Assembly: GCA_002011735.1 (NCBI GenBank)
Contig: MTOQ01000069.1
Location: 1-50,661 of the forward strand
Reading direction: 5' to 3'
DNA length: 50,661 nucleotides
Source of the DNA: Nitrospirae bacterium JdFR-81
Lineage (GTDB): Bacteria > Nitrospirota > Thermodesulfovibrionia > UBA6902
Position 1 is the first letter of the stretch, and every line of letters begins with the position of its first letter. Positions 36,977 through 40,669 of the stretch are shown one piece after another. A program made the translations under genes and the position numbers. The notes below the pieces were generated by a model. That model was not told the origin of the DNA, did no database searches, and saw only the letters and a list, made by a program, of their open reading frames with translations.

Positions 36977-38094
36977 TAGACAGGAGACTGTTAAAGAATT
37001 TTGACTGGGGTATCCCCTTTGTCGCCCTGTTCATATCATTGATAGGTGTGGCCACGATCTATAGTGCCACAAGGCCGGTGTTCGACATCCCGCAGCAGGA
37101 CTTTTACCTGAGGCAACTATACTGGATAGCCATCGGCATGCTGGCCTTCATCTTTACAATAAGCATCGACTACAGACACCTGGTGAGGTTTGCATATATA
37201 TTATTCTTGATTGGCGTTATCCTCCTCTTTGCAGTGCTATTCATAGGTAAGAGGGGCATGGGTGCACAGAGGTGGATAGTGCTCGGTCCGTTCTCATTCC
37301 AACCATCTGAATTCTTCAAGATACTCTTTATTGTGGCACTATCACGATACCTGTCACGGATGGATCGCTCAAGACCGCTTGGCCTGCGGGAGATCATCAG
37401 GATGCTGACCCTCTTTGTGCTCATCCCTTTCATACTCATTATAAGACAGCCTGATCTTGGCACGGCTATTATCCTGCTACTCCTCTTTTCATGCATGGTT
37501 ATGATGGCAGGTGTCAGGAGGAGGATCGCCATAACCGGGATCATCATCGGCCTTGTCTCCCTGCCCTTTATTGGCAGTATCATGTGGGAGAATCTCAAGG
37601 ATTATCAGAGGCAGAGATTGATTGCCTTTGTTGAACCAGAGGCCGATCCTCATGGGGTCGGGTATCATATCAACCAGTCAAAGATCACCATAGGGTCAGG
37701 TGGGTTTACAGGCAAGGGCTATCTGAAGGGCACACAGGGCCCACTGAGGTTTCTGCCCGAGAGGCATACAGACTTTATATTTGCAATATTTGCCGAGGAA
37801 TGGGGCTTCAGTGGTTGTATCGTCCTCTTTCTCCTGTACCTGTTCCTTATAACAAAGGGCATTGACACGGTGAAGAAGGCAAGGGATGCCTCAGGCGCCT
37901 TTATCGTGTTAGGTGTGACCATTGCATTCTCGTTTTATTTCATCATCAATGTCGGTATGACCCTTGGGATGGTGCCTGTCGTGGGCATACCAATGCCCCT
38001 CTTCAGTTATGGTGGCACGGCGATGCTCTCAAACTTCATTGCACTCGGGATTATAGAGAATGTGAGGATGCGGAGGTCTTTTATGTATTATTGA
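36973..38094 (+). CDS. rodA: Rod shape-determining protein RodA (SEDS)
   Basis: Polytopic; KGYLKGTQGPLRFLPERHTDFIFAIFAEEWGF and GIPMPLFSYGGTAML. Confidence 0.96.
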   Translation: MIDRRLLKNFDWGIPFVALFISLIGVATIYSATRPVFDIPQQDFYLRQLYWIAIGMLAFIFTISIDYRHLVRFAYILFLIGVILLFAVLFIGKRGMGAQRWIVLGPFSFQPSEFFKILFIVALSRYLSRMDRSRPLGLREIIRMLTLFVLIPFILIIRQPDLGTAIILLLLFSCMVMMAGVRRRIAITGIIIGLVSLPFIGSIMWENLKDYQRQRLIAFVEPEADPHGVGYHINQSKITIGSGGFTGKGYLKGTQGPLRFLPERHTDFIFAIFAEEWGFSGCIVLFLLYLFLITKGIDTVKKARDASGAFIVLGVTIAFSFYFIINVGMTLGMVPVVGIPMPLFSYGGTAMLSNFIALGIIENVRMRRSFMYY

Positions 38095-39161
38095 TCAGAA
38101 CCACTTACATACCCAGCAACAAGGTCACCCACCTCAGAGGTGGTATACCCCATCTGCCCTGCTGCAAGGCTCTTCAGATGCCTTGATGTCACCTTTATGA
38201 TGGCCTCCTCTATCCCCTTGGCTGCCTCTTCTTCCCCAAGGTGCTCAAGCATTAATCCAGCCGCTGAGATGGCTGCAAGGGGGTTTATCATATTCTTGCC
38301 CTTATACTTCGGAGCTGAACCACCTATCGGCTCAAACATGGAGACCCCGTTTGGATTTATATTGCCTCCAGCAGCGATCCCCATGCCACCCTGTATCATT
38401 GCACCAAGGTCTGTGATGATGTCACCGAACATATTGTCAGTCACTATGACATCAAACCATTCCGGGTTCTTTACGAACCACATGGTTATGGCATCGACAT
38501 GGGCATAGTCTGTCTTTATATCAGGATACTCCTTTGCAACCTCATAGAATGTCCGCTCCCATAGATCAAAGGCGAAGGTGAGGACATTTGTCTTTCCACA
38601 GAGGGTCAGTTTCCTGTCCTTGTTACGTTTCTTTGTAAACTCAAAGGCGAAGCGGATGCACCTCTCAACACCCTTACGGGTATTTATCGACTCCTGTACA
38701 GCGATCTCATCCGGGGTCCCCTTCCTCAGAACCCCCCCTGCACCAGCATAAAGCCCCTCTGTGTTCTCTCTCACCACAACAAAGTCTATATCTTCAGGCC
38801 CCTTGTCTTTCAGTGGGCAATCAACACCTGGATATAGCTTAACAGGTCTTAGATTTATGTACTGATCTAACTCGAACCTGATCCTGAGCAGTATACCCTT
38901 TTCAAGGATGCCAGGTTTTACATCTGGATGTCCAATCGCACCAAGGTAGATTGCATCGAAGCCCTTCAACTCCTCCAGTGCGCTGTCAGGGAGTGTCTCG
39001 CCTGTCCTGAGATACCTGTCTCCTCCGAAATCAAAAAAAGTGGTGTTGAGCTTGAACCCATATCTCCCTGATACCGCATCAAGGACCTTAACCCCCTCGG
39101 CAACCACCTCAGGCCCTGTACCATCACCAGGGATAACCGCTATATTGTATGACCTGGACAA
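38088..39161 (-). CDS. leuB: 3-isopropylmalate/isocitrate dehydrogenase family protein, probable LeuB
   Basis: NIAVIPGDGTGPEVV, VRENTEGLYAG, DNMFGDIITDLGA and GSAPKYKGKNMINPLA. Start set at TTG 39161 because the track ORF runs back through a tRNA gene. Confidence 0.88.
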   Translation of the reverse strand: MSRSYNIAVIPGDGTGPEVVAEGVKVLDAVSGRYGFKLNTTFFDFGGDRYLRTGETLPDSALEELKGFDAIYLGAIGHPDVKPGILEKGILLRIRFELDQYINLRPVKLYPGVDCPLKDKGPEDIDFVVVRENTEGLYAGAGGVLRKGTPDEIAVQESINTRKGVERCIRFAFEFTKKRNKDRKLTLCGKTNVLTFAFDLWERTFYEVAKEYPDIKTDYAHVDAITMWFVKNPEWFDVIVTDNMFGDIITDLGAMIQGGMGIAAGGNINPNGVSMFEPIGGSAPKYKGKNMINPLAAISAAGLMLEHLGEEEAAKGIEEAIIKVTSRHLKSLAAGQMGYTTSEVGDLVAGYVSGSDQ

Positions 39162-39194
39162 TTCAACCCCCAAGATCCGTATTATTGAAAAAAA

Positions 39195-39270
39195 TGGCGG
39201 TCCCAACGGGACTCGAACCCGTGTCTTAGCCTTGAGAGGGCTACGTCCTAGGCCACTAGACGATGGGACC
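39195..39270 (-). tRNA. tRNA-Glu (anticodon CTC), CCA encoded
   Basis: Minus strand GGTCCCATCGTCTAGTGGCC...TAGCC-CTCTCAA-GGCTA...ACGGGTTCGAGTCCCGTTGGGACCGCCA; intact 7-bp acceptor stem. Confidence 0.95.
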
Positions 39271-39325
39271 GGAGACAGTAGTAATTTTAACAAATTAAGG
39301 ATAAAAATGTAAGGCTTATAGAAGG

Positions 39326-39721
39326 TCAATCAAGGATATCCAAGAGGCTCAGTGCAGGGTTTGTAAGGAGGCGGTCGACGATCAGGCCGAAGAAACTCTG
39401 GTCATCAGACTTATAATACCATCCAAGGTGAGTGAAGCAGTTTGAACAGAGGCTTATGCTCCAGCTGAAGCCCTCAAACCACGTATGATCCATAACGGGT
39501 ATGCCATGCACCATGCATCCACTGGCCGAAGAGAAACAACTGATCCTGTAGGTTACCCCCTCGGGATTGGTAAATTCGTGTATATATTCTCCATTTACAG
39601 TGATGTTGTGTGCAGGAAGGGTTATAATGTTCTTACAGGTCTTACACAGCACGGCCTGGCCTTCTTTAAGGCCAAACCTCTTCTCTACCTTTATCCTTGC
39701 CTTTCTGTCCTCCCCCTTCAT
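39326..39721 (-). CDS. Single-domain CULT (cereblon thalidomide-binding-type) protein
   Basis: LCKTCKN, FTNPEGVTYRI and DHTWFEGFSWSISLCSNCFTHLGWYY match the cereblon CULT layout: two CxxC zinc pairs and a three-Trp cage. Confidence 0.87.
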   Translation of the reverse strand: MKGEDRKARIKVEKRFGLKEGQAVLCKTCKNIITLPAHNITVNGEYIHEFTNPEGVTYRISCFSSASGCMVHGIPVMDHTWFEGFSWSISLCSNCFTHLGWYYKSDDQSFFGLIVDRLLTNPALSLLDILD

Positions 39722-39778
39722 TTCCGGGACATTTATATTTTAACAAAATGGCACAGAATTGTTGTATACTCAACTATT

Positions 39779-40669
39779 ATGGAGAAGATACCAGAGGGCT
39801 TCAGGGCAGGTTATGTCTCGATTATTGGCAAGACCAATGTGGGCAAGTCCACTCTGCTCAATCAGCTATTGAGATTCAAACTCTCCATAGTCACACCAAA
39901 GCCCCAGACCACCAGGAGGAGGGTCATAGGCATCCTGAATGGCGAGGGCTATCAGATAGTGTTCATAGATACGCCTGGTATAATCGAGCCAAAATATACA
40001 CTCCAGGAGGTCATGATGACCTATGTGAAGAGGGCCATGGATGACGCCGATGTTATACTCTATATGGTCGATGCCTCGATACCCCAGCAGATTGAAGAGG
40101 ACGTAAGGATGGGCCATACAAAGGATAAACCAGTGATACTCCTGCTTAACAAGATAGACCTCATAAAAAAAGAACTGCTCCTTGAGATGATAGATAGACA
40201 CAGGAAGGCATACCCATTTGACGCCATAATACCCATATCTGCACTCAAGAATGACGGACTGGACAGGGTGATTAAGGAGACGGTCAACCTGCTGCCTGAA
40301 GGCCCACCATACTATCCCTCTGATTACATAACACCTGAACAGGAGCGATTCTTTGTGGCAGAGATTATCAGGGAGAAGATCTTTCTCCGCTACGGTGAGG
40401 AGATCCCTTATTCAACGCATGTTGAGATCCAGGAATTCCGTGAGAGGGAAAGGGGTAAAAACTATATAAGTGCGGTGATATATGTGGAGAAGGACTCCCA
40501 GAAAGGGATCCTGATCGGCAAGGGTGGTCAGGCCCTGAGGCGTATAGGGATGGAGGCGAGACAGGAGATCGAGGGTTTTCTCGGCCGTCCGGTCTTTTTA
40601 GAGTTGTTTGTAAAGGTCAGTGAGGACTGGAGGAAGAGAAAGACAAGGCTGAGAGAGCTTGGTTATTAG
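39779..40669 (+). CDS. era: GTPase Era
   Basis: YVSIIGKTNVGKSTLLNQLL, FIDTPGI, LNKIDL and KH domain KGILIGKGGQALRRIGMEARQEIE. ATG at 39779; upstream extension rejected. Confidence 0.97.
   Translation: MEKIPEGFRAGYVSIIGKTNVGKSTLLNQLLRFKLSIVTPKPQTTRRRVIGILNGEGYQIVFIDTPGIIEPKYTLQEVMMTYVKRAMDDADVILYMVDASIPQQIEEDVRMGHTKDKPVILLLNKIDLIKKELLLEMIDRHRKAYPFDAIIPISALKNDGLDRVIKETVNLLPEGPPYYPSDYITPEQERFFVAEIIREKIFLRYGEEIPYSTHVEIQEFRERERGKNYISAVIYVEKDSQKGILIGKGGQALRRIGMEARQEIEGFLGRPVFLELFVKVSEDWRKRKTRLRELGY

Follow-up and report, generated by a model that had tools for sequence, protein, structure and literature searches.

A predicted stand-alone CULT protein, related to the domain of human cereblon that binds thalidomide, in the genome of Nitrospirae bacterium JdFR-81

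Bacterial CULT proteins are used in place of a major drug target, and at issue is which ligand their thalidomide pocket natively takes up. The bacterial single-domain family was described in 2015, mainly from delta-proteobacteria, with a few alpha and gamma members and one spirochete (PMC4287342). Its closest described representative for the present work is MsCI4 (MGR_0879) from Magnetospirillum gryphiswaldense (PDB 4V2Y, 7PS9), whose cage residues contact the imide ring (PMC8900816). Cyclic imides at protein C-termini are what this pocket reads in cereblon, and their formation is reportedly the work of PCMT1/PIMT (PMC11974815 and references therein). Yippee and Mis18 share a related beta-tent fold and a zinc site with the CULT domain (PMC4287342). 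Here we analyse a member encoded in a window of 50,661 nucleotides (contig MTOQ01000069.1, positions 1 to 50,661) which, together with its relatives, takes the family as described in 2015 into a further phylum. About 60 sequences are thereby supplied, in which the pocket is near-invariant and the rim variable.

The open reading frame runs from 39721 to 39326 on the minus strand, with an ATG start, 131 codons and an in-frame TAA upstream, and is present in a single copy in its genome (assembly of 2.05 Mb, 96% complete). When the protein was compared by phmmer with PDB sequences, it matched MsCI4 (E 7.2e-24, residues 24–123) and the thalidomide-binding domain of human cereblon (E 2.1e-11; animal cereblon domains overall, 1e-8 to 1e-11), values that chance would not give. 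Pfam offered Yippee-Mis18 (PF03226) at 24.3 bits, under the cut-off of 26.6, and a zinc ribbon that was likewise sub-threshold, and the NCBIfam scan gave no match, so that annotation pipelines could leave the protein as “hypothetical”. Neither database revealed a second domain, the CULT domain being the whole protein, and no hydrophobic leader was found. From these homologies, the window protein is almost certainly a CULT protein, intact and related to the domain by which human cereblon binds thalidomide, as the original prediction had proposed. It is a new, well-preserved member of the published single-domain family. An AlphaFold prediction made with six sequences only (the window's and those of five other loci) was uninformative (pLDDT 41), and the probable beta-tent fold is for this reason assigned through homology to crystal structures. 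Features of the locus are collected in Table 1.

Table 1. Coordinates, in the window, of the CULT gene, of its motifs and of its neighbours
Feature	Position	Strand	Source or remark
CULT gene, single domain, 131 aa	39326..39721	-	
Clade-specific N-terminal motif IKVEKRFGL, residues 10-18	39668..39694	-	alignment
First zinc pair C26-K-T-C29	39635..39646	-	
NPxG motif at hairpin tip, N52-P53-E54-G55	39557..39568	-	named in PMC4449219
Segment W81–W87 with the first and second tryptophans of the cage (MsCI4 W79, W85; human W380, W386)	39461..39481	-	
Second zinc pair C92-S-N-C95	39437..39448	-	
W101, third tryptophan of the cage, with Y103 at the cage base (MsCI4 W99, Y101)	39413..39421	-	
Intergenic region between the divergent CULT and era start codons (39721, 39779), 57 bp	39722..39778		
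era GTPase, divergent neighbour	39779..40669	+	NF000908
tRNA-Glu (CTC), shortly after the CULT gene, without conserved linkage to it	39195..39270	-	
3-isopropylmalate-dehydrogenase-like gene	38088..39164	-	homologue also adjoins the divergent CULT gene of L049

The window protein resembles MsCI4 in being a stand-alone CULT domain of similar length, alignable over 100 residues with an offset of two in the numbering. Both CxxC pairs, the histidine and the three cage tryptophans, said beforehand to be retained, were all found aligned with MsCI4 (Cys26, Cys29, Cys92, Cys95, His98, Trp81, Trp87, Trp101), as was the tyrosine at the cage base. The differences from MsCI4, which belongs to another phylum, are Glu54, Asp78, His79 and Phe85 in the window protein against Ala52, Glu76, Phe77 and Tyr83; the human counterparts are His353, Glu377, His378 and Tyr384, and Pro53 corresponds to MsCI4 Pro51. 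With human cereblon, the protein shares the cage tryptophans (Trp101 being the counterpart of Trp400), the CxxC pairs, the NPxG motif and the histidine at the position of His378. It differs by Tyr103 in place of human Phe402 and, being only 131 aa long and giving no LON match, has neither the LON domain nor the DDB1-binding region; moreover, the bacterium has no ubiquitin system through which such a protein could act. Taking the roles of the pocket residues from PMC8900816 and PMC4449219, Tyr103 should supply an extra hydrogen bond, as reported for MsCI4.

Conservation was scored over 62 sequences, namely 61 collected bacterial CULT proteins and MsCI4. The second and third cage tryptophans were present in 62/62 and the first in 61/62, while each of the four zinc cysteines was kept in 61 or 62 sequences. 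The Asn and Gly of NPxG were found in 100% of the sequences covering those positions. Rim position 54 was freely variable. At position 85 the most frequent residue was Phe (33/62), which means that conservation is not strict for Y384, a tyrosine of importance in human cereblon. Directly before the first CxxC, a motif IK[TSV]EK[KR]FG[LI] is common to 8 members of the window's order (the window protein and seven relatives); it is absent from the Syntrophaceae CULT proteins of the alignment and, being a property of the protein's own clade, further separates it from MsCI4. This order-specific IKxEKKFGL lead-in is possibly a partner-binding or lid peptide.

The gene is patchily distributed: CULT was found in 8/41 near relatives and in 14/396 genomes of the window's phylum, Nitrospirota. 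It was also detected in 11/155 genomes from the class of one Syntrophaceae genome, and in 39/395 genomes of the phylum of the latter, here called Desulfobacterota. The sets of viral contigs, plasmids and phages gave no CULT match, and carriage by such elements was dropped from consideration. Fusions were also discarded, the long open frames of some relatives (up to 416 aa) being judged by eye to reflect frame read-through and not a second domain. In the tree, the window protein falls within a clade of nine rows (support 95/86), made of seven from its own family, one from another family of the same order and one from a family designated f15. The remaining f15 proteins form a separate clade of their own, and transfer of CULT is therefore likely to have occurred to some extent. 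The CULT protein of locus L049 groups with MsCI4, on a long branch.

Neighbourhoods were surveyed for 55 CULT loci (427 ORFs), 29 of which had flanks of only 1.5 kb. The divergent neighbour in the window was correctly named era beforehand, since its product scores 363 bits with NF000908 (cut-off 237). Conservation of a CULT-era pair had been put forward as a check, and here the outcome was negative: the era gene found in the window does not recur at the other CULT loci with which it was compared. Its adjacency carries no information on CULT function. A universal partner was ruled out, as no family extended beyond a handful of loci, mostly of one lineage, and no conserved protease or adaptor was seen to adjoin CULT in the 55-locus survey. 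Neighbours were lineage-dependent, with MltA beside CULT at four loci from the family of the window, ftsY in f15, an hflK-hflC-CULT arrangement in one locus (L039), and an aspS-CULT-leuB-like order at L049. An aspartyl/asparaginyl-tRNA synthetase as partner was set aside, because it occurred at three loci and, by estimate rather than computation, chance is plausible given the many families compared. The proteasome was rejected too, being near-universal in relatives with or without CULT. The single-case neighbours (ppnP, see below, hflK-hflC, aspS and ftsY-PIMT) point in different ways, and none is relied on alone.

Two side observations concern the genes flanking CULT in the window. Full-length Era was found in the window's genome and in two other members of its order, and in 15 other genomes of the window's family (G001-G015) the search for Era returned only Der-like double-domain and other GTPase matches; most members of the family seem to lack Era. 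On the other flank, the mechanical ORF of the dehydrogenase-like gene (38088-39329) crosses the tRNA-Glu gene, whereas the true start comes only after the tRNA, at about 39164.

What might such a protein do? By analogy with MsCI4, it would be a soluble, cytosolic, zinc-stabilised stand-alone reader, in which the three tryptophans would form a cage that closes around an imide-like ring of five or six members. The backbone of residues 79 and 81, through hydrogen bonds, and the hydroxyl of Tyr103 would hold this ring in place. Our guess for the most likely role is that the rings recognised could be C-terminal cyclic imides (aspartimide or glutarimide) arising from damage to Asn or Gln, and that CULT might thereby mark or shield damaged proteins or peptides, using the pocket as human cereblon does. 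That the window protein reads cyclic imides in the cell is a tentative proposal, which we consider possible without counting it as probable. The statement that the Magnetospirillum protein is known and that the physiological ligands of the bacterial family are unsettled is consistent with the literature (PMC4287342, PMC4449219), and other readings of the locus have to be weighed. That it encodes a yippee- or Mis18-like zinc protein devoid of an imide pocket, and not a CULT protein, is hardly conceivable: Yippee-Mis18 was indeed the only offer of Pfam, but at a score under the cut-off, compared to E 7e-24 over 100 residues with MsCI4. The window protein groups with CULT by sequence, and relatives at 43–58% identity keep every cage residue.

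Turning to the ligand, the cage could bind a free pyrimidine, CULT being then a uracil or uridine sensor which reports on, or buffers, the pyrimidine state. Uridine and deoxyuridine, but neither thymidine nor cytidine, are bound by MsCI4 in the same mode as thalidomide, with affinities in the low-micromolar range; a biological context for uridine was sought by its authors without success (PMC4449219). At one locus, a same-strand gene that ends 13 bp before CULT is ppnP, encoding a pyrimidine/purine nucleoside phosphorylase (L046:6279-7044, genome G309), but no pyrimidine gene recurred among the 55 loci and none adjoins the window gene. We regard this explanation as unlikely. Alternatively, the cage may read some other target, such as a modified side chain, a different peptide end or a small-ring metabolite, with partners specific to each lineage. 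The lineage dependence of the neighbours, MltA in the window's own family included, would fit with this, as would the flexibility of the apo site, in which quite different ligands have been trapped (PMC4449219). A cage so extremely conserved in two phyla argues instead for a single common ligand, and we treat this alternative as an open contender that falls short of being probable.

As cereblon reads cyclic imides and PCMT1 reportedly makes them, PIMT genes were counted (TIGR00080, tallies taken by hand from tables) in the genomes surveyed for CULT. The mere presence of PIMT did not separate CULT from non-CULT genomes. Copy number did so in the window's phylum, where 10/14 CULT genomes had at least two PIMT genes, compared to 51/382 of the others, a comparison picked after a first table was seen and made on genomes that are not independent. 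A permutation of copy number stratified by family, extra near relatives included, had an expected value of 7.3, where 14 was observed (p = 1.5e-4). No association of copy number with CULT was found in Desulfobacterota (19/39 versus 152/356, p = 0.50).

A tree of 98 PIMTs resolved two clades, A and B (support 100/99). In the 41-genome set, clade-B PIMT was present in 7/8 CULT genomes and in 11/33 others (p = 0.013; p = 0.001 when stratified over two families). Export-type hydrophobic leaders were seen in 16/16 clade-B proteins examined and in 0/14 of clade A. CULT itself has none, so that CULT and clade-B PIMT would not meet. The positive association in the window's own phylum is thus kept as a lead rather than a result, given the negative copy-number result in Desulfobacterota and the export leaders, which weaken it. 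An ftsY-CULT-PIMT-B operon in a single genome (L045/L129, genome G192) is compact, the start of CULT overlapping the stop of ftsY, with 4 nt between the CULT stop and the PIMT start; this one case suggests a specific test. A wider scheme can be drawn, in which a CULT reader and PIMTs, cytosolic for clade A and exported for clade B, would together survey damaged ends for cyclic imides, as an older counterpart of the mammalian PCMT1-cereblon link. We judge this scheme improbable as it stands.

Finally, as regards clade-B PIMTs in themselves, their loci (L129, L132, L134, L137 and others) have accB/accC/thiE-like neighbours in the window's family. These proteins are presumably periplasmic, where a SAM-dependent methyltransferase is odd in itself.
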